Below are positions 1-62,413 of a DNA stretch of 64,000 nt, piece by piece. The stretch is from positions 387,153 to 451,152 of the forward strand of contig NZ_LMSA01000003.1 of assembly GCF_001427985.1 (NCBI RefSeq), written 5' to 3'. The translations under genes and the position numbers were made by a program. Source of the DNA: Knoellia sp. Soil729. Its GTDB lineage: Bacteria; Actinomycetota; Actinomycetes; Actinomycetales; Dermatophilaceae. The notes below the pieces were generated by a model. That model was not told the DNA's origin and made no database searches. It saw only the letters and a list, made by a program, of their open reading frames with translations. Position 1 is the stretch's first letter; every line of letters begins with the position of its first letter.

Positions 1-257
1 CCGTGGGCACACCTGTGGTGAGCCTCTTCTCGCCGGTGGTCCCCGTCGAGCGGTGGCGACCGTGGGGCGTCCCCCACGTCGTGCTGGGGGACCGGGCTGC
101 GGCATGCCGTGGCACCCGGGCGACTGCATGCCCCGTCCCGGGCCACCCGTGCCTCAACGGTGTCGACCCGACAGTGGTGACGGGCGCGGTCGGCCAGCTG
201 GCCGGCATACCCAGGGCGGTTGCTGCTGACGGGACGGCAAGGGGAGGTGTGGGATGA
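1..257 (+). CDS. Glycosyltransferase family 9 (heptosyltransferase-like), C-terminal fragment
   Basis: Only the last 84 or so codons are present; the gene begins upstream of the window. The visible part reads GTPVVSLFSPVVPVERW and then has cysteine-bearing segments ending in HPCLNGVDP, the usual C-terminal pattern of ADP-heptose:LPS heptosyltransferase-like GT9 proteins (the nucleotide-sugar site followed by a Cys-containing tail). Its stop codon overlaps the start of the next gene in an ATGA junction, so it belongs to the heptose glycan operon that follows. The acceptor is unknown; in a monoderm it would be a cell-wall or secreted glycan, not LPS. The GTG at base 3 is internal, not the start. 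Confidence 0.75.
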   Translation, partial: VGTPVVSLFSPVVPVERWRPWGVPHVVLGDRAAACRGTRATACPVPGHPCLNGVDPTVVTGAVGQLAGIPRAVAADGTARGGVG

Positions 258-1234
258 AGGTGCTCCTGTGGCACGTCCACGGCTCCTGGACGACGAGCTT
301 CGTCGCGGGCGAGCACCAGTACGTGCTGCCCGTCAACGACGAGCGCGACGCGGACGGGCGCGGACGGGCGCAGTCCTGGGACTGGCCTGCGTCGGCGCGC
401 GAGGTGGCCCTGTCGCGACTCGGTGACGAGGACATCGACGTCGTGGTCCTCCAACGGCCCCACGAGTCGCGGCTCCTCCGTGAGCTCACCGGCCTCCGGG
501 TCGGGGTCGACGTCGCAGCGGTCTACGTCGAGCACAACGCGCCCACCGGCCACGCCGTGTCGACCCGGCACCCCGTGGCCGACTGCGAGGAGCTCGTCGG
601 CCTGAGCGTCGTCCACGTCACCCGGTTCAACGCGATGGCGTGGGACTGCGGAGCCGCGCGCACCACGGTCGTGGAACACGGCATACCGGACCCGGGTGCG
701 CACTACACCGGAGAGGACCCGAGCGCCGCCGTGGTGGTCAACGAGCCGGTCCGACGCTGGCGGGTGGCCGGCACCGACCTGGTGATCGACCTGGCCCGGC
801 GTGTGCCGGTGCACGTCTACGGCATCGACACGGCGCTTCTCCAGGCCGCGAGCAGGGAGGTCGGCGGGCCCGACCTGACCGGGCGCCTGCACGACCTGCC
901 GCAGTCGGAGCTGCACCGTGCCCTCGGCCATCACCGCCTGTACTTCCACCCCTACCGGTGGACCAGCCTGGGGCTGTCACTGCTCGAGGCGATGACTCTC
1001 GGGATGCCGGTGCTGGCGTTGTCCACGACCGAGGCGCCCTATGCCGTGCCGGCATCCGCGGGCCTGGTGAGCAACGACCTCGGCGAGCTGCGGCAGGCCG
1101 CGATGCGGTGGCTGGCAGACCCAGCCGGTGCGCGCGAGTGCGGCGTCGCCGCGAGAGAGCACGCTCTTGCCCACTACGGGCTCCCCCGGTTCCTGACCGA
1201 CTGGGACAGCATCCTCAAGGAGGTAGCACGGTGA
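254..1234 (+). CDS. Glycosyltransferase family 4 protein
   Basis: 326 residues. The C-terminal half carries the GT4 donor-site pattern: YFHPYRWTSLGLSLLEAM followed by GMPVLALSTTEAPYA, at about residues 232-268. The N-terminal half is poorly conserved, as is normal where the acceptor binds. The ATG overlaps the previous stop (ATGA) and follows a GGTGTGGG purine-rich stretch. The last codons overlap the next gene through GTGA, so it is translationally coupled inside the heptose cluster. The protein probably adds one sugar to a cell-surface glycan; donor and acceptor cannot be read from the sequence. The motif CGGCATAC at 679 creates a Gly-Ile with the rare ATA codon. Confidence 0.85.
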   Translation: MKVLLWHVHGSWTTSFVAGEHQYVLPVNDERDADGRGRAQSWDWPASAREVALSRLGDEDIDVVVLQRPHESRLLRELTGLRVGVDVAAVYVEHNAPTGHAVSTRHPVADCEELVGLSVVHVTRFNAMAWDCGAARTTVVEHGIPDPGAHYTGEDPSAAVVVNEPVRRWRVAGTDLVIDLARRVPVHVYGIDTALLQAASREVGGPDLTGRLHDLPQSELHRALGHHRLYFHPYRWTSLGLSLLEAMTLGMPVLALSTTEAPYAVPASAGLVSNDLGELRQAAMRWLADPAGARECGVAAREHALAHYGLPRFLTDWDSILKEVAR

Positions 1235-3105: not shown

Positions 3106-4559
3106 GGGCGCGGCGCCGCACGGTCGTCGTGGTCGGTGACGTCGTCCTCGACCGTGACCTCGTGGGCCGGGTCGAGAGGGTGTGCCCCGACGCCCCCGTG
3201 CCGGTGGTGGACGTCGTCGCCGAGTCCTACGGTCCGGGCGCAGCGGCACTCACGGCGTTGCTGTGCGCGGGACCGGGCGTCGAGGTGACCCTGGTGGCCC
3301 CGGTGGGACGGGACTCCGCTGGCGCACTGGTTCGAGAGTCGCTGGAGCGTGGTGCCGTCCGCCTCGTGGCGCTGCAGCAGTCCGGGCCGACACGTCGCAA
3401 GACCAGGGTGCGCAGCCAGGGGCAGTCACTGCTGAGGATCGACGACGGGGGCCCGAGCGCTCCGGACGGGCCCCTCCCCCGTGAGGCTGCACGTGCCCTC
3501 GAGGAGGCCGACGTGGTCGTCGTCTCCTGCTACGGGGCAGGCACGAGCAGTCTCCCCGAGCTGCGAGAACTGCTGGCGCAGCGGGCAACCCGTGGCCCGG
3601 TGGTCTGGGACCCCCACCCGCGCGGCGCCGACCCCGTCCCCGGATGCACCCTGGTGACACCGAACCTCGCCGAGGCGCACGCTGCTTCCGGTATGCCGGG
3701 TGCTCACGGCGACGACCTGGCCCGCCATCTCGTCTCGGCCTGGTCCGCGCGCGGAGTCTGTGTGACGGCGGGTCGATCCGGCGCGTGGTTGGCGACGAGC
3801 ACCGGTGAGCCGGTGCACTTCCCGACCACCGCAGTCCCGGGTGACAGCTGTGGCGCCGGGGACGCGTTCGTCGCCGCCGCGGCGACGGCCATGGCACGAG
3901 GGTGCACCACGAGCGAGTCCGTTGCCCATGCCGTGTCGGCGGCGCGCGAGTGGGTCGTCGGCGGTGGCACCTCCGGCTACCGGGATCGCGCGGCCGGTGC
4001 AGGAGCGGCCACGGGCGCGGCCGCGGGCGCGGCCGCGGCTGGCCGCATGGTGGCTGCCGGCCCGGAGAAGCCTTCTGCACTGGACGTGGCCCGACGGGTG
4101 GCGGCTCAGTCCGGCACCCTCGTGGCGACCGGCGGGTGCTTCGACATCCTCCACGCTGGCCACATCGCCTCGCTCGAGGCCGCTCGCGGGCTCGGGGACG
4201 CCCTCGTGGTGCTCCTCAACTCTGACGAGTCCGTGCGCAGGCTCAAGGGAGCCGGGCGCCCCGCGCAGAACGCAGCCGACCGGGCCCGGGTGCTCCTGGG
4301 TCTGTCGTGCGTCGACGCGGTCATGACCTTCGGCGAGCAGGGTCCGGACGCGGCCCTCGAGGTGCTGCGTCCGGACGTGTGGGTCAAGGGGGGCGACTAC
4401 GAGGGCACGGAGCTGCCCGAGGCGGCACTCGTGCGCAGCTGGGGTGGACGGGTCGTCCTCATTCCCTACCAGCCGGGCTACTCGACCACGGCGATCCTGG
4501 CCGACACGGCGGACACGGACGGCACGTCCAACCGGGTCGGCGTGGGCGCCGAGCCGTGA
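3102..4559 (+). CDS. hldE: Bifunctional heptose 7-phosphate kinase / heptose 1-phosphate adenylyltransferase
   Basis: 485 residues, close to the family length of about 475. The N-terminal PfkB-type kinase domain starts VVVGDVVLDRDLVGR and has the catalytic PGDSCGAGDAF motif near residue 245. The C-terminal cytidylyltransferase-like domain carries TGGCFDILHAGH near 345 and VKGGDY near 428. In HldE these domains phosphorylate heptose 7-phosphate at C1 and then transfer AMP to give ADP-heptose. A Gly/Ala-rich linker (about residues 296-314) joins them. The usual GGAANVA substrate loop reads GPGAAALTA, so it is a divergent member. ATGA overlap with the GT4-GmhA gene. The intermediate phosphatase GmhB is not visible and may lie upstream of the window. 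Confidence 0.9.
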   Translation: MRARRRTVVVVGDVVLDRDLVGRVERVCPDAPVPVVDVVAESYGPGAAALTALLCAGPGVEVTLVAPVGRDSAGALVRESLERGAVRLVALQQSGPTRRKTRVRSQGQSLLRIDDGGPSAPDGPLPREAARALEEADVVVVSCYGAGTSSLPELRELLAQRATRGPVVWDPHPRGADPVPGCTLVTPNLAEAHAASGMPGAHGDDLARHLVSAWSARGVCVTAGRSGAWLATSTGEPVHFPTTAVPGDSCGAGDAFVAAAATAMARGCTTSESVAHAVSAAREWVVGGGTSGYRDRAAGAGAATGAAAGAAAAGRMVAAGPEKPSALDVARRVAAQSGTLVATGGCFDILHAGHIASLEAARGLGDALVVLLNSDESVRRLKGAGRPAQNAADRARVLLGLSCVDAVMTFGEQGPDAALEVLRPDVWVKGGDYEGTELPEAALVRSWGGRVVLIPYQPGYSTTAILADTADTDGTSNRVGVGAEP

Positions 4560-4614: not shown

Positions 4615-5322
4615 ATGACCTACGACAACCGTCCCCGCGAGCTTGGCGTCACCTATGTCACGGGAGGCTCCAGTGGTCTCGGTGCGGCCCTCGTCGACGC
4701 CGTCGCCAAGGCCGGTGGCGTGCCCGCCGTGATCGATCGCGTGCCGCCACCGGACCCGAGCACGCCCCACACCGTCGTCGACCTGGCCGACAGCCAGGCT
4801 GCCGCGGCGGCCGTGTCCGAGCTCGTCTCCACGGTGGGGCCTCCCCAGGCGCTCGTCACGGCGGCCGGAACCGACGCCTGTGGTCCGCTGGACCAGGTGT
4901 CGGTGGCCGACTGGGAGAACGTGGTACGCGTCAACCTGCTGGGCACGGTCTCGGTGGTCCGGGCGTGCCTGCCGCACCTCGTGGCGGTCCACGGCACCGT
5001 GGTGACCGTCGCCTCGACCCTCGGCCTGCGTCCGGCCGGTGACGCCACGGCATACTGCGCCTCGAAGTTCGGCGTCGTCGGGTTCACGAGGGCTCTCGCC
5101 ATGGAGCTGGCGGGCCGGGTGGGTGTCACGCTGCTCGTGCCGGGAGGCATGCGCACGCGGTTCTTCGACGGACGCACCGAGCAGTACCGGCCGGGTCCCG
5201 ACGCCGACCTCAGCGATCCGGCCGACGTCGCCAACGCCGTCATCACTGCCCTGTGCAGCCCTCGCGGCGTCGAGCTGCGCGAGCTCGTCGTGGCCACCTC
5301 GACGGAGCCCTCCTGGCCGTGA
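4615..5322 (+). CDS. Short-chain dehydrogenase/reductase (SDR)
   Basis: 235 residues. Classical SDR: NAD(P)-binding TGGSSGLG at residues 15-22 and the catalytic YCASK near 145. The ATG at 4615 has GAAGGAG eight bases or so upstream (4604-4610). It sits between hldE and a GT9 gene, overlapping the latter by GTGA, so it probably oxidises, reduces or epimerises an intermediate of the same glycan. The substrate cannot be told from the sequence. Confidence 0.85.
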   Translation: MTYDNRPRELGVTYVTGGSSGLGAALVDAVAKAGGVPAVIDRVPPPDPSTPHTVVDLADSQAAAAAVSELVSTVGPPQALVTAAGTDACGPLDQVSVADWENVVRVNLLGTVSVVRACLPHLVAVHGTVVTVASTLGLRPAGDATAYCASKFGVVGFTRALAMELAGRVGVTLLVPGGMRTRFFDGRTEQYRPGPDADLSDPADVANAVITALCSPRGVELRELVVATSTEPSWP

Positions 5323-6275: not shown

Positions 6276-7188
6276 ACCAGGCGACCGTCCGGTCCAGCCC
6301 CTCATGCCAGGACATCCGGGGCTGCCAGCCCAGGACCTCACGGGCCAGCGTCGTGTCCGGCCGTCGCACCTGCGGGTCGTCCACGGGGAGATCGACGAAC
6401 GTGAGCTGCGAGCTCGAGCCGGTGGCGGTGATGACGTCCTCGGCGATGGACCGCACGGACATCTCATCCGGGTTGCCGAGGTTCATCGGGCCAGGGTGAT
6501 TCGAGCCGGCAAAGGCCACGATCCCGGCGACGAGGTCGTCGACGTGGCAGACGGAGCGGGTCTGCGTGCCGTTGCCGGCCACCGTGAGCGGCTCCCCGAG
6601 CAGCGCTTGGCGGATGAACGTCGGGATGGCGCGGCCGTCGTGCGGTCGCATCCGTGGCCCATAGGTGTTGAAGATCCGCACGATCGCGGCGTCGACGCCC
6701 TCGCTGTTGCGGTATGCCGTCACCATCGCTTCGCCGTAGCGCTTGCCCTCGTCGTAGACCCCCCGTGGACCCACGGGGTTGACGTGACCCCAGTAGCTCT
6801 CGGGCTGCGGGTGGACCTGGGGGTCGCCATAGACCTCGGACGTCGAGGCGAGCACCAACCGTGCCCCCTTCTCCTTCGCCAGACCGAGGGCGTGCCAGGT
6901 GCCGATGGCACCCACCTTGAGGGTGTCGATGGGGAAGCGCAGGTAGTCCGAGGGCGATGCCGGTGAAGCGAAGTGCAGGACGAGGTCGACACTTCCGGGC
7001 ACGTGGACGAACTCGGTGATGTCGCAGTGCACCAGGCGGAAGGAACGGTCTGTGCGCAGGTGGGCCACGTTGGCCGGCGACCCGGTGAGGAAGTTGTCCA
7101 GGCAGAGCACCTCGGCGCCCTCTGCCAGCATGGCCTCGCACAGGTGACTGCCGAGGAAGCCGGCGCCGCCGGTGACTACTACACGCAC
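6247..7188 (-). CDS. NAD-dependent sugar epimerase/dehydratase, UDP-glucuronate decarboxylase-like
   Basis: 313 residues. Extended SDR: VVVTGGAGFLGSHL binds NAD at the N-terminus, STSEVYGDP is at about 115-123 and the catalytic pair is in YDEGK (Y145, K149). The pattern HFASPASPSDYLRFPIDTL and the RPHDGRAIPTFIRQAL segment are those of UDP-glucuronic acid decarboxylases (UXS), which make UDP-xylose; related 4,6-dehydratases cannot be excluded. AAGGAG lies just upstream of the ATG. It converges on the heptose operon and probably supplies a nucleotide sugar to the same glycan. Confidence 0.85.
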   Translation of the reverse strand: MRVVVTGGAGFLGSHLCEAMLAEGAEVLCLDNFLTGSPANVAHLRTDRSFRLVHCDITEFVHVPGSVDLVLHFASPASPSDYLRFPIDTLKVGAIGTWHALGLAKEKGARLVLASTSEVYGDPQVHPQPESYWGHVNPVGPRGVYDEGKRYGEAMVTAYRNSEGVDAAIVRIFNTYGPRMRPHDGRAIPTFIRQALLGEPLTVAGNGTQTRSVCHVDDLVAGIVAFAGSNHPGPMNLGNPDEMSVRSIAEDVITATGSSSQLTFVDLPVDDPQVRRPDTTLAREVLGWQPRMSWHEGLDRTVAWFRQVELEAG

Positions 7189-9124: not shown

Positions 9125-10359
9125 CGACCTCCGACTCGCTCTCCCGCGCCCTGCGGGGTCTGGCTGCACGGCGCGACCGACCGCTGCGCGTCGTGGCGAG
9201 CGGCAACGCCGCGGTCCCCTGGGCCCTGCTCGAGCTCCTCGACGCCTCCGTGTCCCGCTACGAGCTGTTCATCCTCAACGCTCCACACGGCATACCCTTC
9301 CGTCCCGGAGTGGCGCACGTGACGCCGTTCGTCGGACCGGGGATGCGAGCCACGCCGGGACTGTCGTACCTTCCGGCACGCCTGTCGCACGTCCCGCACA
9401 TGTTCACCACCCACTTCGTGCCGGACGTCGTCCTCGTCACGACCTCCGAGAAGGTTGGCGACCGATGGTCCCTGGGTGCGGAGGTCAACATCCTGCCCGC
9501 CGCGATCGCCTCCTGCCAGGCTGCTGACGGACTGGTGCTGGCCGAGTCGCGAGCCGACGTCCCATACACCTACGGGGATGGCGACCTGCTCCCCGAGGAC
9601 CTCGACGGTGTCCTCGTCGCACCTCCCCACCACGGGCGGCACACCCATGCGGCCCTGCCCCCGACCGCGGAGGTCGGGCGCATCGGTGACCTCGTCGCCG
9701 CTCGGGTCCCTTCGGGCGCCACCCTGCAGCTGGGCATCGGTGCCATTCCCGACGCGGTGGTGCCGCACCTGACCCAGCGGCGCCGGCTCGGGCTGTGGAG
9801 CGAGATGATCGCCGACGGGATCCTCAGCCTGCACGAGGCCGGGGCGCTCGACCGCAACCGCGAGCTGGTGGCTTCCTTCGCCGTCGGTCGACCGGCTCTC
9901 ATGTCCTGGCTGCACCTCAACCCACAGGTGCGGATGCTGCGCACGGAGACCGTGAACAACCCCGGCCGGATCGCCGCCAACCCCCGGATGACGAGCGTCA
10001 ACACCGCTCTGACGGTGGACCTGTTCGACCAGGCCAACGGCAGCCACGTCGGCTCGCGCCTGCACTCCGGTCTCGGCGGTCAGTGCGACTTCGTCGTCGG
10101 TGCCATGGACTCCGCTGGCGGCCAGGCCATCATGGCGCTGCGCTCGTGGCACCCCAAGGCAGACGTGTCGACGATCGTGGGTCTGCTCGAGGGCCCGGTC
10201 ACGTCGTTCCAGCACAGTGCGGTCGTCACCGAGCACGGAACCGCCGAGATCATCGGATGGGACTCACGGTCCCAGGCGAGGCACCTCATCGAGACCGCCG
10301 CCCATCCGTCGGTGCGTCGAGACCTCTGGGAGGACGCCACGGAGCTGGGGCTGGCCTGA
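9121..10359 (+). CDS. Acetyl-CoA hydrolase/transferase (family I CoA-transferase-like)
   Basis: 412 residues from a GTG overlapping the previous stop. VASGNAAVPWALLELL opens the first domain; the second has the LQLGIGAIPDAVVPHL signature, then LGLWSEMIADGILSLHEAGAL, where the catalytic Glu of the 4-hydroxybutyrate/acetate CoA-transferase family is expected, and HSGLGGQCDFVVGAMDSAGG. The enzyme would move CoA between acetate or another short acid and an acyl-CoA. Coupling to a flavin-binding protein under a DevR-like box suggests a role in low-oxygen acyl-CoA or acetate metabolism; this is inference. Confidence 0.85.
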   Translation: MTTSDSLSRALRGLAARRDRPLRVVASGNAAVPWALLELLDASVSRYELFILNAPHGIPFRPGVAHVTPFVGPGMRATPGLSYLPARLSHVPHMFTTHFVPDVVLVTTSEKVGDRWSLGAEVNILPAAIASCQAADGLVLAESRADVPYTYGDGDLLPEDLDGVLVAPPHHGRHTHAALPPTAEVGRIGDLVAARVPSGATLQLGIGAIPDAVVPHLTQRRRLGLWSEMIADGILSLHEAGALDRNRELVASFAVGRPALMSWLHLNPQVRMLRTETVNNPGRIAANPRMTSVNTALTVDLFDQANGSHVGSRLHSGLGGQCDFVVGAMDSAGGQAIMALRSWHPKADVSTIVGLLEGPVTSFQHSAVVTEHGTAEIIGWDSRSQARHLIETAAHPSVRRDLWEDATELGLA

Positions 10360-10451
10360 GTGCAGGCACGATCGGACGTTCACAACCCTGTATGCCGGGT
10401 GCTTGCCGGAGCAGCATGGGTGCAGCAGACGAGATGAAGGGCTGGAGAAGC

Positions 10452-11798: not shown

Positions 11799-13487
<1,689 letters not shown>

Positions 13488-44844: not shown

Positions 44845-45279
44845 ATGGAGCCCACGAACCGCACGTATGCCGTCACCAAGACCGATGAGGAGTGGAAGGC
44901 CGAGCTCAGCCCGCAGGAGTACGCCGTCCTGCGCCAGGCGGGCACGGAGGCCCCCGGGGTGGGTGAGTACACCGACACCAAGACCGAGGGCGTCTATGCC
45001 TGTCGCGCCTGTGGGTCGGAGCTGTTCACGTCGGAGACGAAGTTCGAGAGCCACTGCGGCTGGCCCTCGTTCTACAGCCCGCTCGCCGGTGACTCGGTCG
45101 AGTTCCTCGAGGACTCCTCCCTTCCCGGCCGCCCCCGGGTCGAGGTCCGCTGCGCCAGCTGCGGCAGCCACCTCGGGCACGTCTTCGAGGGTGAGGGCTA
45201 CGACACCCCCACCGACCAGCGGTTCTGCATGAACAGCATCGCCATGACCCTGCGCCCCGCCGACAGCGCCACCGCCTGA
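44845..45279 (+). CDS. msrB: Peptide-methionine (R)-S-oxide reductase MsrB
   Basis: 144 residues, full family length. Zinc Cys pairs C53/C56 (YACRACGSE) and C103/C106 (VRCASCGSH), ESHCGWPSFYSPL, and the catalytic Cys C128 in DQRFCMNSIAM. The enzyme reduces methionine-R-sulfoxide in proteins in the cytoplasm, using thioredoxin. The resolving Cys near position 63 of the classical enzyme is not obvious. GTATGCCG at 44865 lies in codons 7-9. Confidence 0.95.
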   Translation: MEPTNRTYAVTKTDEEWKAELSPQEYAVLRQAGTEAPGVGEYTDTKTEGVYACRACGSELFTSETKFESHCGWPSFYSPLAGDSVEFLEDSSLPGRPRVEVRCASCGSHLGHVFEGEGYDTPTDQRFCMNSIAMTLRPADSATA

Positions 45280-45329
45280 CCCGCCCCCCGACCCGCCCCC
45301 CGCCCCGCCCCACCCACCTCCCCTTTTAC

Positions 45330-45399
45330 GGCTGATCACGGAAGCGGAGCGTTCAGCCCGGAACCGTTCCCGGCCGAACGCTCCACTTCCGGGCTGATC
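45330..45399. repeat. Palindromic element, copy 1, with 8-bp flanking direct repeats
   Basis: 26-base arms (45339-45364 and 45366-45391) differ at three positions and meet at a one-base loop (GGAAC-C-GTTCC). GGCTGATC occurs directly on both sides (45330-45337 and 45392-45399). The end of the AbiEi/DUF559-like gene is encoded within it. A related copy is at 46435-46503. Confidence 0.8.
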
Positions 45400-46325
45400 C
45401 GCCCCCCTGAGGCGGTGTGGGGCAGCGCGCGCCGGACCATGGCTGAGGCCCTGCCTGGCGTCTCCAGGTGCGACCAGGTCACCCGCACGAAGAGGTGACC
45501 GAGGGAGCGCATCTCGTCCACACGGCGCTTCTCGGCCCAGAGGACCTCACCGTCACCGTCGGCATACTTCATCTTCCCGTCGACCTCGATGATGACGTTG
45601 GTGCCCTTGACCCGGAAGTCGGCGCGTCCGACGACCTTGCCGTCGGCCCGCCGGATGACGACCTGCGACTCGACCTGTATGCCGTGTGTCACGAACTCGA
45701 CGCGGGCTCGGCTTTCCGCGACGGACTCGCAGGCCGGGTCGACGAGGTCCCGCATGGCCCGCGCACGGCTCGAGCGGGGCCACGTCGCCACCCGCTCGAC
45801 CGCAGCCTCGAGCTCCGCCATGGAGACCTGACCACTGTGCAGTGCGGCATCCGCGGACACGACGCCCTGGACTATCCCGTGGTCCATCGCCAGCTGCACC
45901 AACGCGTCTGCGAGCGGCACGGTCGGACCGTAGGGCGACTCAACCGACGTTGACACCCCGCCGCCCGGACGAACCCTGAACGGCTTGACCCCCACCTGGT
46001 GGGTGATCGGTCGTCGCAGCTCGGGCCGGTCGAGCCGGCAGTTCCACACGGGCACCCCGTGGGCCAGCACGGCCGTGACACCGGTCAGCTGTGCGTCCTC
46101 GTACAGAAGGTGCGCTCCACGCGCGAGAGTCAGGTGCCACGCAAGGGGACGTGTGTCGACGAGCGAGGCCACGGCATACAGGCCTCGCGTCGGGTGGAGC
46201 ACGGTCCGGCCACGGACGAGCTCACGCAACCACGTGCGCGACAGGCCGAATTGATGTGCCTGGGCGGTGGTGAAGAGGCCACCCTGCTCTTGGGCGAGTG
46301 CGACGAGGTGTGGGTCGAGGTCCAT
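45336..46325 (-). CDS. AbiEi-antitoxin-domain and DUF559-like protein
   Basis: 329 residues. N-terminal winged-helix segment LVALAQEQGGLFTTAQAHQF and SRTWLRELVRGRTVLHPTRG resembles the AbiEi_4 antitoxin domain. The C-terminal part has GRADFRVKGTNVIIEVDGKM and the Lys/Arg-rich KRRVDEMRSLGHLFVRVTWS, the core of DUF559/Vsr-like nuclease folds (acidic residue, E-x-D-G). Solitary proteins of this build are common in actinobacteria and have no known partner. Start at 46325 is preferred over an in-frame codon at 46349. It is bracketed by two related palindromic elements, and no toxin gene lies next to it. Confidence 0.75.
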   Translation of the reverse strand: MDLDPHLVALAQEQGGLFTTAQAHQFGLSRTWLRELVRGRTVLHPTRGLYAVASLVDTRPLAWHLTLARGAHLLYEDAQLTGVTAVLAHGVPVWNCRLDRPELRRPITHQVGVKPFRVRPGGGVSTSVESPYGPTVPLADALVQLAMDHGIVQGVVSADAALHSGQVSMAELEAAVERVATWPRSSRARAMRDLVDPACESVAESRARVEFVTHGIQVESQVVIRRADGKVVGRADFRVKGTNVIIEVDGKMKYADGDGEVLWAEKRRVDEMRSLGHLFVRVTWSHLETPGRASAMVRRALPHTASGGRISPEVERSAGNGSGLNAPLP

Positions 46326-46434
46326 GACCGTCACCGTGGGCCACCGCACCGGCGAGCGCCACAGCCCCCGCGGAGTCTGTGGATGACGTCGCAGGGGGGC
46401 GAGCCCTGTGGACAGGAGAGCGAACGACGAGCTT

Positions 46435-46503
46435 CAGCCGGGAAACGGAGTGTTCAGCCGCACACAGTTCCGGGCCGAACACTCCTCTTCTGTGACCAGC
46501 CGG
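46435..46503. repeat. Palindromic element, copy 2
   Basis: Related to copy 1: CGGAGTGTTCAGCC ... GGGCCGAACACTCC compared with CGGAGCGTTCAGCC ... CGGCCGAACGCTCC, in the same orientation. CAGCCGG occurs directly on both sides (46435-46441 and 46497-46503). It is between the hemQ 3' end (46524) and the DUF559-like gene start. Confidence 0.75.
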
Positions 46504-46523
46504 AAAAGGTGAGGTGGGTGGGG

Positions 46524-47256: not shown

Positions 47257-48678
47257 TCATTCTCCCGCGCCCGGTCCGGCGCTCGTCAGGTGGGTCACCG
47301 TCGCGCGGGCGGCCGCATGCGCCGAGGCGATGACGGCCGGGATTCCGATGCCCTGGTAGGCGGCACCTGCCACCTCGAGACCGGGCACCCGCGCCACTGC
47401 TTGGCCCACGCGCTCCATCCGGTCGACATGCCCCACGGTGTACTGCGCCAGTCCTCCGCCCCATCGCCGGACGTGGCTGTCAACGAGCGTGAGCGGCGGG
47501 GCACCCACCGCCTCGGCGATCTCGCGGCGCGCCAGGTCGACGAGCTCGGCGTCGTCGCGCTGCAGCGTCGCCGTCTCCCCCGCCCGTCCCACGGACGCAC
47601 GCACGTATGCCGTGTCGCCACCTTCTGCAGCCAGCCACCCCCACTTGGCTGAGCTGAACGTGCTCGCCTTGATGCCGCGGTCGTCCACCGGCGGCACGAG
47701 GAAGCCGGAGCCCTCCCACGACGCGACCTCGGCCCTCGGGACGGCGAGCGTGATGACCGCCACCGAGGCCATCTCGACGTCGGCCAGCGCAGCGGCGGCA
47801 TCGGGGGCGACCGCGCCGAGGAGCCGGGACGCCGGCGGCGGTGGCACCGCGACGATCACGGCGTCGAACTCCTGTCGGCGTGGCTGGGTCGTCGGGCCGC
47901 TGAGTACCGACCAGCCGCTGGCCGTCCGCTCGAGGCCGCGCACGATCGTGCGCGACTCGATCACTGCACCGCGTCCTTCGACGTCGGCCGCGAGGAGCTC
48001 GGCCAACCTGCCCACGCCACCAACGAGGCCGATGAAGGGCGGACGTGCGGTGCCGGCCTGCGGGTCGACGACCGGGGGCGCGAGCAACGACCCCCGGTCC
48101 CTGGCGATGGCCCAGACCGCAGGCATGGTGGCGCGCAGGGACAGGTCGCGGGAGTGGCCGGCATACACACCGCCGAGGAGCGGCTCCACGAGCCGTTCGA
48201 CGACAGCGGCACCCAGCCGCGCACCGACGTAGTCGCCGACGCTCACGTCGTCCCCCACTTCTGGGGCGGGGGACTCGGCTCGCATGCGCGACTCCTCGTC
48301 CGCGGTGAGAAGCCGGCCGATGACCGAGTCGGCGAACGGCACGCCAATCCGGGTGCGCGGCAATGGATGCAGCTCACCGCGCGACCACACCCGGGCGGAG
48401 GTCGTCGTGGGCGTGACGATGTCTGTCGTCTCGGCGAGCTCGCCGACGAGGTCGATGGCCTCCGGTCGCACGGCCAGCATCGCCTCTGCCCCGACGTCGA
48501 CGAGGTGCCCACCGATCTCCTCCCGGCGCACCTTGCCACCCACGCGGTCGGAGGCGTCGAGCATGACGACCTGCGCGTCCGGCAGGGCGACCAAGACGTC
48601 ACGCGCGGCGGTGAGTCCGGCCACTCCCCCACCGATGACGGCGACGGACGGGCGGGGCTTTGGTGCGGCGTGGCTCAC
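47257..48678 (-). CDS. hemY: Protoporphyrinogen/coproporphyrinogen III oxidase
   Basis: 473 residues. FAD-binding [20 protein letters not shown] at the N-terminus; [20 protein letters not shown] near 180; C-terminal [17 protein letters not shown] and [20 protein letters not shown]. In actinobacteria the HemY/CgoX enzyme oxidises coproporphyrinogen III to coproporphyrin III, feeding CpfC and HemQ. It is followed by hemQ and divergent from the DUF4349 gene. The GTG at 48678 follows GAGGAG closely; no better start is seen. GTATGCCG at 47605 and CGGCATAC at 48159 are inside. Confidence 0.92.
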
Positions 48679-49785: not shown

Positions 49786-50802
49786 GTGCTCGTGCACGAC
49801 CTCGACGATCCTCGTGAGGACGTCGGGGTCGGCGTTCGGCGGCACGCCGTGACCCAGGTTGAAGATGTGGCCCGGAGCCGCGCGGCCCTCGTCGACGATT
49901 GCACGAACGCGCTTCTCGAGAACGTCCCACGGGGCACCCAGCAGAGCCGGGTCCAGGTTGCCCTGCACGGCATACGAGTCCCCGAGTCGCGCAACGGCAT
50001 CGGTGAGGGACAGGCGGTAGTCGACCCCGACGACCTCCGCCCCCGCCTCGCCCATCAGGGCGAGCAGCTCGCCGGTGCCGACGCCGAAGTGGATGCGCGG
50101 GACACCGAGGTCGGCGACCGCGGCCAGCGCTGTGGCCGAGTGCTTCTGCACGTATGCCGTGTAGTCGGCTCGCGAGAGAGCGCCCACCCAGGAGTCGAAC
50201 AGCTGGACGGCGCTGGCCCCGGCCTCGACCTGGACGCGCAGGAAGGCGCCGGAGATCTGGGCGAGGCGCTCGCAGAGGTCGTTCCACAGCTGCGGGTCAC
50301 CGTGCATGAGCGCCTTGGTGTGCTCGTGCGTCTTGGACGGACCGCCCTCGACGAGGTAGGACGCGAGGGTGAAGGGAGCCCCCGCGAAGCCGATGAGCGG
50401 GGTGCTGCCGAGCTCGGCGACGAGGCGCTGCACCGACTCCGTGATGTCGGGAATCGCATCCGGCGTGAGGGCGGGCAGGCGGTCGAGGTCAGTCCGCGTC
50501 CGGATCGGCTGGGCAACGACCGGGCCGGTGCCGGGCACGATGTCGAGGTCCACCCCGACGGCGGCGAGGGGGACGACGATGTCGGAGAAGAAGATCGCCG
50601 CGTCGACCTTGTGACGCCGCACCGGCTGCAGCGTGATCTCGGTGACGAGGTCCGGTGTGCGACAGGCCTCGAGCATGGCCGTGCCCTCGCGCAGCTCGCG
50701 GTACTCGGGCAGCGAGCGGCCGGCCTGCCGCATGAACCACACGGGGGTGTGCGGGACGGGCTGGCGGGTGGCGGCGAGGACGAGTGGGCTGTCAGCAATC
50801 AC
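49774..50802 (-). CDS. hemE: Uroporphyrinogen decarboxylase
   Basis: 342 residues. PVWFMRQAGRSLPEYRELR with the substrate-binding Arg pair at the start, IFFSDIVVPLAAVGVDLDIV, GFAGAPFTLASYLVEGG, and the C-terminal IFNLGHGVPPNADPD. Converts uroporphyrinogen III to coproporphyrinogen III, the substrate of HemY. The GTG at 50802 starts the conserved sequence; a longer frame reading into the 33-bp repeat region would add repeated RCHRPNGQSVV peptides and is rejected. GAGGAT seven bases upstream could be a leaderless -10. Confidence 0.94.
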   Translation of the reverse strand: MIADSPLVLAATRQPVPHTPVWFMRQAGRSLPEYRELREGTAMLEACRTPDLVTEITLQPVRRHKVDAAIFFSDIVVPLAAVGVDLDIVPGTGPVVAQPIRTRTDLDRLPALTPDAIPDITESVQRLVAELGSTPLIGFAGAPFTLASYLVEGGPSKTHEHTKALMHGDPQLWNDLCERLAQISGAFLRVQVEAGASAVQLFDSWVGALSRADYTAYVQKHSATALAAVADLGVPRIHFGVGTGELLALMGEAGAEVVGVDYRLSLTDAVARLGDSYAVQGNLDPALLGAPWDVLEKRVRAIVDEGRAAPGHIFNLGHGVPPNADPDVLTRIVEVVHEHSAR

Positions 50803-50833
50803 GCCGCTGATCCTCTCATCCCGCCAAAACACC

Positions 50834-51047
50834 ACTGATTGCCCGTTCGGACAGTGGCACTGCACGACTGATTGCCCGTTCGGCCGGTGGCACCGCACGA
50901 CTGATTGCCCGTTGGGCCGGTGGCACCGCGCCACTGATTGCCCGTTCGGCCGGTGGCACCGCACGACTGATTGCCCGTTGGGCTACCGCCCAACGGGAAT
51001 CAGTGGCGCAGGGGCTGGTCCGAACTGGCCGAACGGGCAATCAGTGG
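50834..51047. repeat. 33-bp tandem repeat (about five copies) plus two inverted copies
   Basis: Units start at 50834, 50867, 50900, 50933 and 50966 with an exact 33-base period; all share ACTGATTGCCCGTT and most share GGTGGCACCGC. Two copies of the core appear inverted (around 50991-51006 and 51031-51047), so the block can fold on itself. It fills most of the hemE upstream gap. Unit identity is high and there are no spacers. Confidence 0.93.
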
Positions 51048-51893: not shown

Positions 51894-51978
51894 GCCCGCA
51901 GCCTAGGGGTGCACCGGGCCGGCGAACCCTCGGCGTGGCCTCACTCCCGAAACCAGCGCACCGGCATACCCTCAGTAG

Positions 51979-53854: not shown

Positions 53855-53917
53855 CACCAGCGGGGCACACAGCACACGCCGGTATGCCGTCCGCACGCTG
53901 TGCGTCGACGCTCTGGC

Positions 53918-53952: not shown

Positions 53953-55488
53953 ATGACTGAGTCCAGCTACCTCACCCGGATCGGCACCCTCATCAGGGAC
54001 GCACGACGCCACCACGGCCTCACCCAGAGCGAGCTCGCCGACAAGCTCGGCACCAGCCAGAGCGCCGTCGCGCGCATCGAGCAGGGCCGTCAGAACCTCA
54101 GCCTCGAGATGCTCGCCCGCGTCGGCGAGACCCTCGGCAGCGAGTTCGTCTCCCTCGGCCACAGCGGCCCCCAGCACCTGCGGATCGTCGGCGGCGCCAA
54201 GCTGTCCGGCTCGATCCCCGTCAAGACCTCCAAGAACGCGGCCGTCGGCCTGCTCTGCGCCGCCCTGCTCAACAAGGGCCGCACCACCTTGCGCAACCTG
54301 GCCCGCATCGAGGAGGTCAACCGGATCATCGAGGTGCTCACCTCGATGGGTGTCAAGGTGCGCTGGCTCCCCGACAGCAGCGACCTCGAGATCATCCCGC
54401 CGGCCACGCTCGACCTCGACTCGATCGACATCGCGGCTGCTCGGCGCACCCGCACCGTGATCATGTTCCTCGGCCCACTGCTGCACCAGTTCGACACGTT
54501 CTCGCTCCCCTACGCCGGCGGCTGCGACCTCGGCACGCGCACCGTCGAGCCGCACCTCGCCACCCTCAAGTCGTTCGGCCTGGACGTCGCGGCCACCCAC
54601 GGCTCCTACGAGGCCAAGGTCGACAAGACGACGCGCCCCGAGAAGCCCATCGTCCTCACGGAGCGTGGCGACACCGTCACCGAGAACGTCCTCTTCGCCG
54701 CTGCCCTGCACCCGGGAACGACCGTCATCCGCAACGCGTCCTCGAACTACATGGTCCAGGACGTCTGCTTCTTCCTCGAGCGCCTCGGCGTCCAGATCGA
54801 GGGCATCGGCACGACGACCCTCACCGTCACCGGGTGCGAGAGCATCGACATCGACGTCGACTACTCCCCCAGCGAGGACCCGATCGAGGCCATGAGCCTC
54901 ATCGCCGCCGCCGTCGTCACCGAGTCCTCGATCACCATCGAGCGCGCCCCGATCGAGTTCCTCGAGATCGAGCTCGCCACCCTCGAGGGCATGGGTCTGC
55001 AGTACGAGATTACCGAGGAGTACCTCGCCAAGAACGGCCACACGCGCCTCGCCGACATCACGATCCTCCCGAGCAGGCTCACGGCCCCGATCGACAAGAT
55101 CGCGCCGATGCCCTTCCCCGGCCTCAACATCGACAACCTGCCGTTCTTCGCGCTCATCGCCGCGTGCGCCGAGGGCACGACGATGATCCATGACTGGGTC
55201 TACGAGAACCGCGCCATCTATCTCACCGAGCTGACCAAGGTCGGAGCCCAGGTGCAGCTGCTCGACCCGCACCGCGTGATGATCACCGGCAAGACGCCCA
55301 AGTGGCGCCCGGCCGAGGTCATGTGCCCGCCGGCACTGCGACCCGGTGTGGTCGTGCTGCTCGCGATGCTCGCCGCCAACGGCACCTCCGTGCTGCGCAA
55401 CGTCTATGTCATCAACCGCGGCTACGAGGACCTCGCCGAGCGGCTCAACGCTCTCGGCGCCACCATCGAGATCTTCCGCGACATCTGA
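53953..55488 (+). CDS. XRE helix-turn-helix fused to a MurA-like enolpyruvyl transferase
   Basis: 511 residues. Residues 6-66 are an XRE/Cro-type HTH: LIRDARRHHGLTQSELADKL and SQSAVARIEQGRQNLSLEML. Residues 75-505 are an EPSP-synthase/MurA fold: IVGGAKLSGSIPVKTSKNAA (the UDP-GlcNAc-binding K94/N95), SLPYAGGCDLGTRTVEPH with a Cys (C191) where MurA has its PEP-binding Cys, and PFPGLNIDNLPFFALIAACA where MurA has PTDMQ. MurA transfers enolpyruvate from PEP to UDP-GlcNAc. Catalytic Cys and Lys-Asn are kept but flanking blocks diverge, so it could be a working MurA, a paralogue with another sugar, or a regulator that senses cell-wall precursors. Confidence 0.88.
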   Translation: MTESSYLTRIGTLIRDARRHHGLTQSELADKLGTSQSAVARIEQGRQNLSLEMLARVGETLGSEFVSLGHSGPQHLRIVGGAKLSGSIPVKTSKNAAVGLLCAALLNKGRTTLRNLARIEEVNRIIEVLTSMGVKVRWLPDSSDLEIIPPATLDLDSIDIAAARRTRTVIMFLGPLLHQFDTFSLPYAGGCDLGTRTVEPHLATLKSFGLDVAATHGSYEAKVDKTTRPEKPIVLTERGDTVTENVLFAAALHPGTTVIRNASSNYMVQDVCFFLERLGVQIEGIGTTTLTVTGCESIDIDVDYSPSEDPIEAMSLIAAAVVTESSITIERAPIEFLEIELATLEGMGLQYEITEEYLAKNGHTRLADITILPSRLTAPIDKIAPMPFPGLNIDNLPFFALIAACAEGTTMIHDWVYENRAIYLTELTKVGAQVQLLDPHRVMITGKTPKWRPAEVMCPPALRPGVVVLLAMLAANGTSVLRNVYVINRGYEDLAERLNALGATIEIFRDI

Positions 55489-55494
55489 GCATTG

Positions 55495-56604
55495 GTGACC
55501 GACTGGAGCGACCTGCGCCGCTGGCCCGACGTCGAGGCCTCCAACCTCCAGGCCTGGGACGCCAGTGACTCGCTGATCCTCGACGAGGCCGGGGAGCTGC
55601 CGGACGATGTCGTCGTCATCGGCGACCGCCACGGTGCCCTGACCCTCGGAGCTCTCGAGGCAGGGGCATCGCGGGTGCGCGTGCACCAGGACGGCATCCT
55701 CGGTGAGCGCGCGCTGCTCGCGAATGCCGCCCGCCGGGGGCTCGAACCATCCGGTATGCCGTTCGCCCACCACCCGCTCGACGCGTCACTTGTCGACGGG
55801 GCGCGACTCGTGCTGCTCCAGCTGCCCCGATCGCTGGACGAGCTCGACGAGATCGCCCAGCTGGTCGCCGCACATGCCCACCCCGAGGTTCGGGTCGTCG
55901 CCGGAGGCCGCGTCAAGCACATGTCACGCTCGATGAACGACGTTCTTGCACAGTCGTTCTCACACGTCCAGGCGAGTCTGGCCAAGCAGAAGTCACGGGT
56001 CCTCCACGCGGCCCAGCCGCGCGGTGGGATCACGTCGACATGGCCGCACGAGCAGCGGCACGACGACGTGGGCCTCACCATCGCGGCGCACGGCGGGGTC
56101 TTCGCCGGCTCAGGCATCGACATCGGCACCCGGCTCCTGCTCGACCACATCCCCAACATGCGGGCCGCCGAGCAGGCCATCGACCTCGCCTCGGGCAACG
56201 GCGTCGTCGCTGCGGCCCTCGCCCTCGCCCGCCCCGACCTGCGGGTCCTTGCCACCGACCAGTCAGCCGCAGCCGTCGCCTCGACCAAGGCAACAGCCGC
56301 AGCCAACGGCGTGAGCGACCGCATCGACGTCGTGCGCGCCGACGGGCTCGAGACCGTCGACACTGCGACGGCCCAGCTCGTCGTGCTCAACCCGCCCTTC
56401 CACGTCGGTGCCGCAGTCCACACCGGCCTGGCCGAACGCCTCTTCGCCGACGCTGCGCGCGCACTGGAACCCGGCGGCGAACTCTGGGTCGTGTGGAACA
56501 CCCCCCTGAACTACCGCCCGATCCTCGACAAGCTCATCGGCTCCACCAAACAAGTCCAACGCACGACCAAGTTCACCGTCACCAGCAGCCGCAAGCGCAC
56601 CTGA
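55495..56604 (+). CDS. Class I SAM-dependent methyltransferase, RsmC/RlmG-like
   Basis: 369 residues. The N-terminal half lacks the SAM motif but has the RsmC/RlmG pseudo-methyltransferase fold (VVIGDRHGALTLGALEAGAS). The C-terminal half has AIDLASGNGVVAAALALARP as the SAM-binding glycine motif and AQLVVLNPPFHVGAAVHTGL with the NPPF catalytic motif of N2-guanine rRNA methyltransferases. GTG at 55495 is chosen over a TTG at 55492. It starts six bases after the XRE-MurA stop without an SD site. Confidence 0.85.
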   Translation: MTDWSDLRRWPDVEASNLQAWDASDSLILDEAGELPDDVVVIGDRHGALTLGALEAGASRVRVHQDGILGERALLANAARRGLEPSGMPFAHHPLDASLVDGARLVLLQLPRSLDELDEIAQLVAAHAHPEVRVVAGGRVKHMSRSMNDVLAQSFSHVQASLAKQKSRVLHAAQPRGGITSTWPHEQRHDDVGLTIAAHGGVFAGSGIDIGTRLLLDHIPNMRAAEQAIDLASGNGVVAAALALARPDLRVLATDQSAAAVASTKATAAANGVSDRIDVVRADGLETVDTATAQLVVLNPPFHVGAAVHTGLAERLFADAARALEPGGELWVVWNTPLNYRPILDKLIGSTKQVQRTTKFTVTSSRKRT

Positions 56605-56776: not shown

Positions 56777-57526
56777 TCAGTGAGCGGTCCACCCACCATC
56801 CATCGTGAACGACGAGCCGGTGATGGAGTTCGACGAGGGGCCGCACAGGAAGGCGACGAGGTCCGCGACCTCGGGTGGCTCAATGAGCCGTTTGATGGCG
56901 ACCGGGGTCAGCATCACCTTCTCGAGGACGTCGGACTCCGCTATGCCGTGGGCGTGCGCCTGGTCGGCGATCTGCTTCTCCACCAGCGGAGTTCGCACAT
57001 AGGCCGGGTTGATGCAGTTGCTCGTCACGCCCTTGTCGCCGGCCTCGAGGGCGACGACCTTGCTCAGCCCCTCGAGCCCGTGCTTGGCCGAGACATAGGC
57101 CGACTTGAACTCGCTGGCCCGTAGGCCGTGCACGGACGAGACGTTGACCACGCGACCCCACCCGGCGGCATACATGTGGGGAAGGCAGGCACGCACGAGC
57201 CGGAACGGCGAGAGCAGCATGATCCGGTGGATGCGTTCGAACTGCTCCACGGGGAAGTCCTGGACCGGCGCGACGTGCTGGATGCCCGCGTTGTTGACGA
57301 GGATGTCGACGTCCCTGGGCAGGGAGGCATGGGCGTCGAGGTCCGACAGGTCCATCACCCAGGGAGTCACACGCTCGGCACCCAAGCGCTCGACCAGCGT
57401 GGCCAGCGCATCGCCGTCGATGTCGACAGCGTGGACGTGCGCACCCTCTGCCGCCAGGCGGTCGACGACAGCGGCTCCGATCCCGCTGGCGGCCCCCGTC
57501 ACCAGCGCGGTACGGCCCTCAAGCAT
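56777..57526 (-). CDS. 3-hydroxybutyrate dehydrogenase-like SDR
   Basis: 249 residues. TALVTGAASGIGAAVVDRLA at the start, VNNAGIQHVAPVQDFPVEQF and NVSSVHGLRASEFKSAYVSA (catalytic Ser and Tyr; K three residues on) match 3-hydroxybutyrate dehydrogenases, with the FTMDGGWTAH end typical of the PhbDH group. It overlaps livM by eight bases (start 57526; GTG at 57535 is an alternative), so it is the last gene of the ABC transporter operon. Oxidises (R)-3-hydroxybutyrate or a related hydroxy acid with NAD, possibly the imported compound. Confidence 0.87.
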   Translation of the reverse strand: MLEGRTALVTGAASGIGAAVVDRLAAEGAHVHAVDIDGDALATLVERLGAERVTPWVMDLSDLDAHASLPRDVDILVNNAGIQHVAPVQDFPVEQFERIHRIMLLSPFRLVRACLPHMYAAGWGRVVNVSSVHGLRASEFKSAYVSAKHGLEGLSKVVALEAGDKGVTSNCINPAYVRTPLVEKQIADQAHAHGIAESDVLEKVMLTPVAIKRLIEPPEVADLVAFLCGPSSNSITGSSFTMDGGWTAH

Positions 57527-59445: not shown

Positions 59446-59484
59446 CCGTATGCCGTCCGCCCAGGGCGCGCGGACGGCATACGG
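59446..59484. terminator. Hairpin formed by an inverted CGGCATAC pair (livK-livH gap)
   Basis: Perfect 15-bp stem: 59446-59460 with 59470-59484, nine-base loop. The stem contains GTATGCCG (59448) and CGGCATAC (59475), the genome-motif octamer in inverted orientation. No T-tract; likely to attenuate or stabilise rather than end transcription. Confidence 0.65.
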
Positions 59485-59495
59485 TCGGGTTGTGG

Positions 59496-59523: not shown

Positions 59524-59527
59524 GAGG

Positions 59528-60778: not shown

Positions 60779-60903
60779 GTCCCCTCCTGGGGTGTGTATG
60801 CCGTGCCCGGCGGATCGATGTTCCGGTGAAGTGTTCGTGTGGTCGTGCGTGCTGGGAAGTGCTTCTTGGGGGTGCTGCTTCGGGGACGTGGCCAGGGATG
60901 CGG

Positions 60904-61611
60904 TCACATGCCGAGGTGCTCGAGCAGGTCCGTTGTGCGGGTCTGGAACTCGGCGTTGTCGAGGCTCTCGACGACCTCGCCCTGGGCGAGGAGGTTGTGG
61001 CGGTCGGCGACCGTCGACGCGAACTTCACGTTCTGCTCGACGAGCAGGACGGCGACACCCTGCGCCTTGATGTCGCGGATGATCTGGCCGATCTGGTTGA
61101 CGATGACCGGCGCCAGGCCCTCACTGGGTTCGTCGAGGAGCAGCAGGCGTGAGCCGGCGCGCAGCGGACGAGCCATGGCGAGCATCTGCTGTTCTCCGCC
61201 GGACAGCTTGGTCCCGGGGAAGTCGCGTCGCTCGTGCAGCACCGGGAACTGCTCGTAGATCTGCTCCAGGCTCCATGCCGCAGCCTTGTCGACGACCGGC
61301 GGGAGGGCGAGGTTCTCGGCGACCGTGAGGGTGGCATAGATGCCGCGGTCGTCGGGCACCCAACCGAGACCGAGGCGAGCCCGCTTGTCCGCGGACTTCC
61401 CGTCCAGGCTGGTTCCGTCCAGCGTCACGGATCCCCGAGTTCCCTTGTGCAGGCCCATGATCGAGCGCAGCAGGGTGGTCTTGCCGGCTCCGTTGCGACC
61501 GACGAGGGTGACGACCTCGCCGGCGGCGACGTCGAGCGAGACATCGCGCAGGGCCTGCGCCTCACCGTAGAACGCCGACAGAGAGTCGACCGTGAGCAGT
61601 GCGTCACTCAT
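60904..61611 (-). CDS. livF: ABC transporter ATP-binding protein LivF
   Basis: 235 residues. Walker A VGRNGAGKTTLLRSI near 38, Q-loop area WVPDDRGIYATLTVAENLAL, signature LSGGEQQMLAMARPLRAGS near 138, Walker B LLLLDEPSEGLAPVIV near 158. The family-typical DDR and AEN stretches confirm LivF. It overlaps livG by eight bases. Confidence 0.93.
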   Translation of the reverse strand: MSDALLTVDSLSAFYGEAQALRDVSLDVAAGEVVTLVGRNGAGKTTLLRSIMGLHKGTRGSVTLDGTSLDGKSADKRARLGLGWVPDDRGIYATLTVAENLALPPVVDKAAAWSLEQIYEQFPVLHERRDFPGTKLSGGEQQMLAMARPLRAGSRLLLLDEPSEGLAPVIVNQIGQIIRDIKAQGVAVLLVEQNVKFASTVADRHNLLAQGEVVESLDNAEFQTRTTDLLEHLGM

Positions 61612-62413
61612 GCGTGTCTCCGGTCTCTCCGAGGTATGCCGTGATGACCTTCTCGTCCTTCCTCACCTCGTCGTACGTGCCCTCCGCGAGGACCTCACCC
61701 GACTGCAGGACCGTCACCCGGTCGGCGAGTGAGCCGACGACGTGCATGTTGTGGTCGACGAAGACGACCGAGCGGCCATCGGAGACCTGCTTGACGAGGT
61801 CGATGGTGCGGTCGACGTCCTCCAGGCCCATGCCGGCCGTGGGCTCGTCGAGCAGCAGCAGCTCGGGGTCGTTGGCGATGGCCAGGGCGATCTCGAGGGC
61901 CCGCTTCTGTCCGTAGGCCAGCGACCCTGCGGTGACGCCCGCACGGTCGGCCAGGCCGACCTGTGACAGCAGCTCCATGGCGCGGGCCTTGAACTGGCCG
62001 AGCCGCTTGCGCGAGCTCCAGAACCGGTAGCCCAGTCCCGTGGGTGAGGCCAGGGCGAGCTCGAGGTGCTCGATGAGCGTCATCTGCTCGAAGAGGCTCG
62101 TGATCTGGAACGAGCGCGCCACCCCCAGGTGCGCGATCTGCTCCGGCTGCTGGCCCGCGATGTCCTTGCCGCGCAGGAGGATCTGTCCCGATGTCGGGGT
62201 GAGGAACCCGGTGAGCAGGTTGAAGAGCGTGGTCTTGCCGGCCCCGTTGGGTCCGACGAGTGCATGGACCGTTCCCTGCGCCACGTCGAGGTTCACGGCG
62301 TTGACGGCGGTGAACCCCCGGAAGTCCTTGGTCAGGTCGACGGTTCGCAGGGCGGACGTCGCCGCTGCCGCCGACGCGGACGCGGATTGCGTCGTCGATG
62401 GGCTAGGGCTCAC
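61604..62413 (-). CDS. livG: ABC transporter ATP-binding protein LivG
   Basis: 269 residues. Start GTG at 62413, five bases after GAGGAGG (62419-62425); upstream ATGs at 62446 and 62470 extend the frame but lack such a site. Walker A VGPNGAGKTTLFNLL near 51, VARSFQITSLFEQMTLIEH, signature-type LAYGQKRALEIALAIANDPE near 155, Walker B LLLLDEPTAGMGLEDVD. A Ser/Ala-rich N-terminal extension of about 20 residues precedes the core. First gene of the transporter operon, divergent from a PucR-type regulator. Confidence 0.92.
   Translation of the reverse strand: MSPSPSTTQSASASAAAATSALRTVDLTKDFRGFTAVNAVNLDVAQGTVHALVGPNGAGKTTLFNLLTGFLTPTSGQILLRGKDIAGQQPEQIAHLGVARSFQITSLFEQMTLIEHLELALASPTGLGYRFWSSRKRLGQFKARAMELLSQVGLADRAGVTAGSLAYGQKRALEIALAIANDPELLLLDEPTAGMGLEDVDRTIDLVKQVSDGRSVVFVDHNMHVVGSLADRVTVLQSGEVLAEGTYDEVRKDEKVITAYLGETGDTHE

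Follow-up and report, generated by a model that had tools for sequence, protein, structure and literature searches.

The octamer copies in the window

The stretch analysed here (the window) is a 64,000-nucleotide segment of the Knoellia sp. Soil729 genome (G000:C3:387153-451152), which comprises 3,605,744 bases in 8 contigs and is referred to below as G000. With a GC content of 69.9%, the window holds 37 copies of the octamer GTATGCCG/CGGCATAC, 18 on the plus and 19 on the minus strand, between positions 203 and 61641. These figures exactly reproduce an earlier count in the first-pass annotation of this DNA, and the class assigned there was right, namely an octamer that is dispersed in very many copies, symmetric between strands and comparable to HIP1 (highly iterated palindrome 1) or an uptake sequence. 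Genes were called with a simple purpose-written script. Alignment of the window with stretches from six congeners (identity 81-82%) covered 27 of the 37 sites in one congener or more and left 10 without an aligned counterpart. The copies of GTATGCCG are listed with their strand, their setting and the fraction of aligned congeners in which the word is intact:

203-210, minus: outside predicted genes; not aligned with congeners
679-686, minus: genic; not aligned
3691-3698, plus: genic; not aligned
5048-5055, minus: genic; not aligned
6712-6719, plus: genic; not aligned
9288-9295, minus: genic; intact in 3/3
10390-10397, plus: intergenic, ~30 bp past a gene end; intact in 0/2
13387-13394, plus: intergenic, convergent pair with 13461; not aligned
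13461-13468, minus: intergenic, convergent pair with 13387; not aligned
19245-19252, plus: intergenic; not aligned
23312-23319, minus: intergenic, ~30 bp past a gene end; not aligned
26398-26405, plus: predicted gene start; not aligned
33213-33220, plus: genic; intact in 6/6
33672-33679, minus: genic; intact in 1/6
35880-35887, plus: genic; intact in 5/6
36450-36457, minus: genic; intact in 5/6
39933-39940, plus: genic; intact in 5/6
41092-41099, minus: genic; intact in 3/6
42055-42062, plus: genic; intact in 6/6
42292-42299, minus: intergenic; intact in 4/4
43488-43495, minus: genic; intact in 1/4
44865-44872, plus: genic; intact in 4/6
45560-45567, minus: genic; intact in 1/3
45677-45684, plus: genic; intact in 3/3
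46172-46179, minus: genic; intact in 3/3
47605-47612, plus: genic; intact in 6/6
48159-48166, minus: genic; intact in 4/5
49968-49975, minus: genic; intact in 4/5
50152-50159, plus: genic; intact in 5/5
51962-51969, minus: intergenic; intact in 4/5
53882-53889, plus: intergenic, ~30 bp past a gene end; intact in 3/3
55754-55761, plus: genic; intact in 3/5, gapped in 2
57166-57173, minus: genic; intact in 5/5
59448-59482, inverted pair forming one hairpin in a spacer: 59448-59455 plus, intact in 2/2; 59475-59482 minus, intact in 1/2
60796-60803, plus: intergenic; intact in 5/5
61634-61641, plus: genic; intact in 5/5

The part of the window from 13.9 to 27.6 kb, mostly without a long DNA match in eight congeners, contains 3 word copies and is possibly accessory. 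At 40036-44764 a LigD-type DNA ligase lies beside a large ExeM/NucH-type extracellular nuclease, and both contain word copies.

In 100 dinucleotide shuffles of the window, GTATGCCG appeared 0.87 times on average (standard deviation 0.95, maximum 5), and an order-3 Markov model predicted 1.52 copies. Genome-wide we counted 2138 copies (593 per Mb; 1055 forward, 1083 reverse) versus 89 for the reversed-word control (38 plus, 51 minus). A 464 kb sample of G000, made up of the window plus twenty 20-kb stretches (~13% of the genome), held 277 copies. The order-3 model expected 11.5 when trained on unmasked sequence and 2.76 when the copies were masked before training, which corresponds to a ~100-fold excess. 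The 24 one-mismatch words, pooled, rose only mildly in this sample (290 versus 214.5 expected, masked model). Thus, the word is sharp, with eight fixed bases. Behind it T (45%) and then G (53%) were favoured, and no other sequence was common to the G000 copies. Strand symmetry was also seen with GTATGCCGT (496/498 by strand; reversed control 10/13) and GTATGCCGTG (577 copies, 293/284; reversed control 6, 2/4). The strong over-representation previously claimed against independence holds against shuffles, the Markov model and the whole genome; a genome-wide count near the Markov expectation, considered at that time, is not what we found.

Each of the 20 sampled stretches contained 8 to 17 copies in both orientations. 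Replichore polarity was therefore rejected (mixed orientation in 20 of 20), and with it the KOPS-type skew (FtsK-orienting polar sequences) that had been raised earlier. The lack of copies between 26.4 and 33.2 kb had been pointed out earlier. However, this largest gap (6815 bases) is what random placement of 37 points would give (P=0.47), and its interpretation as an island was rejected.

Conservation and placement of the word

GTATGCCG was intact in 97 of the 123 congener comparisons, versus 25-28% (0.248-0.282) when every octamer of these alignments is counted. Thus, the word is maintained within the genus. Since congeners share history, such comparisons are not independent, and a test by site is fairer than the pooled fraction: per site, the mean intact fraction was 0.775 versus 0.244, and 27 randomly drawn positions did not reach 0.775 in any of 20,000 draws. 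One-mismatch words were intact in 15 of 74 comparisons and words of the same composition with TA or AT in 1571 of 4724. At the codon level, TAT was retained in 35 of 39 cases within the word versus 45 of 103 outside, and GCA in 28 of 32 versus 63 of 457, while ATA (7 of 12 versus 3 of 8) gave no clear difference. Flanks more diverged than the average, as told of DNA uptake sequences (DUS), were also looked for, with a mixed result (30-bp flanks 0.77-0.84, alignment average 0.81-0.82).

In addition, we compared the surroundings of comEC in 14 ordered pairs of GTATGCCG loci (background 15-37%); taxon names of relatives were taken from the ComEC loci. The word was intact in 3/6, 4/8, 3/6, 5/7 and 3/4 cases in Knoellia-type pairs, in 6/9 and 6/10 in the Phycicoccus group, in 4/6, 4/5, 6/6 and 6/9 in pairs of Humibacillus, Terrabacter and G169, and in 2/7 and 2/6 in two Tetrasphaera-like metagenome-assembled genomes (MAGs). 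A different word, CGAAGGGG, was kept in Janibacter-type pairs (4/7, 4/6, 5/7, 4/5 and 4/4; background 25-47%). In the 49 kb of a phage whose host belongs to the family, but is not known to bear the word, 2 copies were present where 0.62 were expected.

As the first-pass annotation had stated, most copies are genic: 25 of the 37 in the window and 213 of the 277 in the 464 kb sample fall within predicted genes. Per base, however, the word is denser outside genes, where 64 of the 277 copies fell into 10.8% of the DNA. Two reading frames dominate the genic copies: G TAT GCC G (Tyr-Ala, 99 of 213) and CG GCA TAC (Ala-Tyr, 69). The Gly-Ile frame C GGC ATA C accounts for just 23 and other frames for 22, so that the ATA (Ile) codons mentioned previously are only a minor carrier. 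The prevalence of two frames (168 of 213) would fit an artefact of codon pairs or codon usage. Yet 23% of the copies lie outside genes and TAT and GCA are retained only inside the word, which contradicts codon-pair bias alone. A mobile repeat fares no better, given that the G000 copies have no common sequence beyond the trailing T/G preference. Codon-pair bias is thus not supported, and we regard an artefact or a mobile repeat as extremely improbable.

By gene strand, 118 genic copies were sense and 95 antisense. Sense copies leaned to the 5' part of genes (Kolmogorov-Smirnov test: P=0.011) and antisense copies did not (P=0.80). An intragenic bias of the kind described in PMC2346458 was rejected; the two distributions did not differ (P=0.20). 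In same-direction spacers of G000, 25 of 35 copies were closer to the 3' end of the upstream gene. Copies were enriched in non-coding DNA in two further genomes as well (17 of 67 in 10.9% non-coding DNA in G039; 23 of 40 in 15% in G041).

Where neighbouring G000 copies were less than 100 bp apart, 15 pairs were inverted and 2 direct. Some inverted pairs extend to long hairpins, both in Knoellia (window 59448-59482; L024 at 12858; L022 at 19419) and in other genera (L055 at 15091; L059 at 7513). For the hairpin in the window, folding energies were -35.7 kcal/mol (z -2.6) on one strand and -42.7 kcal/mol (z -6.2) on the other. Such placement bears on the idea of a functionless mutational or gene-conversion bias behind a self-perpetuating word. 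Pure drive can keep a word too, and the mildly raised one-mismatch forms in G000 would fit. But the process would have to recognise at least 8 bp, and neither the intergenic nor the hairpin placement seen in G000 is predicted. We therefore consider this explanation improbable.

Distribution in the family and the different words

We called a genome rich if it held at least 150 copies of GTATGCCGT, a threshold set by us and applied by hand count to 186 genomes of the family. By this measure 103 of the 186 were rich, including 9 of 9 in the genus of the window (885-1469 copies). In an order sample of 297 genomes, the 272 outside the family had at most 44 copies of GTATGCCGT. In a class sample of 296 genomes, the 288 outside the family lay at or below ~52 copies of GTATGCCG per Mb, as read by eye. 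That is, among the genomes sampled the word is rich only in this family. A separate observation concerns G710, a genome outside the family in the class sample, with 170 GTATGCCG versus 27 for the reversed control; its listed g165 siblings had ~9-47.

The nearest relative of G000, by ComEC loci and tree, is Knoellia remsis. Rich comEC loci (7-22 copies in 14-22 kb) were found in Phycicoccus elongatus, Intrasporangium oryzae, Humibacillus, Terrabacter, three Ornithinimicrobium and Tetrasphaera-type MAGs. Ornithinimicrobium CNJ-824 had 3 copies in 13 kb, and Intrasporangium flavum, Dermacoccus abyssi and an uncultured Phycicoccus had none at their comEC loci.

Lineages differ in their word. CGAAGGGGG, the word of G052 and G090, reached 797-1939 copies in 19 genomes (16 of the Janibacter-like genus g27 and 3 of g35), versus 11-80 in the other 167 genomes of the family. 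These 19 genomes hold just 1-8 copies of GTATGCCGT. Altogether, 122 of the 186 genomes are rich in GTATGCCG or CGAAGGGGG and none in both; the two words are mutually exclusive. In G041, from another genus, 36 of 42 TATGCCG copies run on as TATGCCGCT, 22 of the 36 between genes, with a consensus of ~20 bp (CCGTATGCCGCTGRGCTSGC). A Phycicoccus MAG contained GAATGCCG 14 times in 22 kb (0.89 expected) alongside 8 copies of GTATGCCG. No comparable word was found in 60-120 kb each of G083, G113, G183 and G008, and only a weak one in G119. The word is nearly absent from single members of otherwise rich genera (G083 versus G084 and G085, G113 versus most of g41, G008 versus other g4 genomes), and G083, G113 and G008 with their rich siblings offer natural contrasts toward the responsible gene.

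We assigned word states from the counts to the 35 loci of a ComEC tree; on this tree, 6 changes of word state were required (shuffled mean 12.6). The CGAA group formed one clade in 99% of bootstrap trees. Since the CGAAGGGGG bearers, including Janibacter indicus, form one clade nested within the group with the GTATGCCG bearers, this single-gene, midpoint-rooted tree suggests that one word was replaced by another.

This pattern can be set against a HIP1-like word kept through a DNA methyltransferase or restriction system. HIP1 and its substitutes in cyanobacteria go with methyltransferases (PMC4390886), and the presence or absence of the word across the family is reminiscent of modification genes. 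A fixed, contiguous, non-palindromic 8-bp word, ~20 conserved bp in G041 and the use of another word by a different clade are, however, not predicted. Although only weakly tested, such a system appears rather unlikely to us.

Three further features of the window lie outside this comparison. At 50830-50983, 4.7 copies of a 33-bp unit containing ACTGATTGCCCGTT occupy a spacer between two minus-strand genes; an inverted copy lies at 51032, and the remaining 400 kb of the sample contained the 14-mer 6 further times. Inverted copies of an internally palindromic repeat of ~90 nt, resembling miniature inverted-repeat transposable elements or enterobacterial repetitive intergenic consensus sequences, lie at 45308-45397 and 46434-46523, with about 17 further genomic places by hand count. 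Finally, 53953-55488 encodes a MurA-type protein (residues 74-507) with an N-terminal HipB/Xre-like helix-turn-helix (residues 9-64).

Candidate DNA uptake tag and comparison with known systems

Of the two leading guesses in the first-pass annotation, an uptake tag is the better supported, through dialects, conservation, hairpin pairs and the intergenic enrichment in G000. We consider it the most likely mechanism, with a probability of roughly 0.55, that GTATGCCG is a self-tag for DNA uptake with lineage dialects. A surface or envelope DNA-binding protein would bind the word on double-stranded DNA outside the cell. A Tad/Flp-type pilus, ComEA and ComEC would then, as in Micrococcus luteus, import fragments carrying it, and these would recombine with the chromosome. 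If word-bearing alleles enter more often, the word would accumulate and be kept by molecular drive and/or selection. It would settle where proteins and transcripts tolerate it, that is, in Tyr-Ala codons, spacers and hairpins. Should the preference of the receptor shift, the genome would drift to a new word, and dialects such as GTATGCCG, the ~20-bp GTATGCCGCTG form, GAATGCCG and CGAAGGGGG would arise. Receptor, uptake, drive and a common function of the different words are what we infer here.

Genes for such a route are present. In the genome of the window comEA and comEC are adjacent (L123), and ComEA has its helix-hairpin-helix. ComEC was found in 180 and T2SSF proteins in 183 of the 186 family genomes, G000 having both; the T2SSF genes are probably Tad-type. 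Micrococcus luteus, from the same order, transforms using comEA, comEC and tad genes (PMC4322843); that paper does not contain the terms 'uptake sequence', 'specific sequence' or 'sequence-specific'.

Several observations weigh against an uptake tag. ComEC and T2SSF are equally present in word-free genomes and were rejected as discriminators, as they gave no contrast between rich and poor genomes. Since none of the machinery genes considered here separates the two, they permit the uptake reading and add no further support. Known cases of DUS and of the uptake signal sequence (USS) use type IVa pilus machinery, and the marker of this machinery, PilM, occurs in just 7 of the 186 genomes, G000 not among them; a type IVa pilus link was rejected accordingly. 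The ComEA helix-hairpin-helix was alike across words in 18 of the 20 loci read and was rejected as the specificity element, and a receptor was not found (ComP was not sought). At the comEC loci, a pair of two Ornithinimicrobium kept GTATGCCG in 0 of 5 cases, and a comparison of g35 with g27 kept CGAAGGGG in 1 of 8 (background 19%). CGAAGGGG is also in milder excess (59 in 120 kb of G052 versus 9.06 expected with masking, 6.5-fold). Accessory DNA was not significantly depleted (24 copies in 34.6 kb aligned versus 13 in 29.4 kb, P=0.19). Inverted partners starting within 48 nt were only twofold in excess (8 copies versus ~4.0 under a Poisson model). Neither G114 (7 of 54 in 11.1% non-coding DNA) nor CGAAGGGG in G052 (6 of 59 in 18%) was enriched between genes, so that intergenic enrichment is not general (2 of 4 other genomes). 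The lean towards 3' ends is also foreign to uptake sequences, which show no such downstream bias according to PMC1939737. Finally, among the matches listed for the open-licence PubMed Central (PMC) literature, we found no transformation in the family.

Some of these points leave room for the main rival, in which ordinary selection maintains non-polar sites for a protein acting inside the cell in chromosome organisation, replication or repair. Even spacing, strand symmetry, conservation and lineage-specific words would be expected here too, and such a binder is also compatible with uptake genes in word-free genomes and with G052 and G114 not being enriched between genes. However, a change of word would require the rewriting of roughly 1000 sites or more, neither the inverted hairpin pairs nor the ~20-bp form of G041 is predicted, and a polarity of the Chi or KOPS type is absent. 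We judge this binder possible, yet clearly less probable than an uptake tag.

To our knowledge, DNA self-tagging for uptake is established in two Gram-negative families only. The same two families are named in PMC1939737. Literature searches with GTATGCCG/CGGCATAC gave unrelated titles only, and neither an actinobacterial uptake sequence (CGAAGGGGG itself was not searched) nor a sequence-specific process for the family appeared, in each case among the matches listed for the open-licence PMC literature. If GTATGCCG is an uptake tag, self-tagging would extend into actinobacteria, and the joint change of a receptor and ~2000 sites could be studied in dozens of species whose word and dialect are known. 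It would further predict which bacteria transform and with what DNA, and would mark native versus foreign DNA. Even without a role in uptake, an octamer so kept and swapped between sister clades demands a sequence-specific process.

Among known systems, KOPS and Chi are over-represented words of about this size, oriented along the replichore. GTATGCCG, in contrast, is unoriented in the 20 sampled stretches, and neither class is supported. A parallel for the machinery is the Tad/Flp-pilus competence of Micrococcus luteus, as comEA, comEC and T2SSF genes, the last probably tad genes, are present in G000. HIP1 is likewise a highly iterated octamer limited to a lineage, and some cyanobacteria without it have other over-represented words (PMC4390886). 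Unlike GTATGCCG, which is not a palindrome and for which no methyltransferase is known (none was searched for), HIP1 is palindromic and tied to methyltransferases.

The DUS of Neisseriaceae resemble GTATGCCG in several respects. The meningococcal DUS is a 10-mer with about 1900 reported copies, and DUS have lineage dialects, two of which may share one genome (PMC3630211). Uptake sequences are non-palindromic, unoriented and denser than expected in non-coding DNA, with ~10% in inverted repeats (PMC1939737); they often act as terminators, are highly conserved in the core genome and are absent from recent acquisitions (PMC2397512). GTATGCCG is similarly short, non-palindromic, unoriented and conserved, with ~2000 copies, hairpin-forming inverted pairs, intergenic density in G000 and dialects, including two words in one genome. 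It differs in the word itself, although ATGCCGT is shared, probably by chance, with the extended DUS consensus of PMC1939737. Moreover, the host is Gram-positive and lacks PilM, and one clade of the family uses a word without visible likeness to the other. The USS of Pasteurellaceae, with a core and weaker conserved flanks in a 29-bp consensus (PMC1939737), resembles the long form of G041, while the word of G000 has just a T and G preference past its core. None of HIP1, KOPS and Chi agrees in every feature, whereas the testable traits of uptake sequences were mostly found in G000; an uptake tag is thus the most likely counterpart of GTATGCCG.

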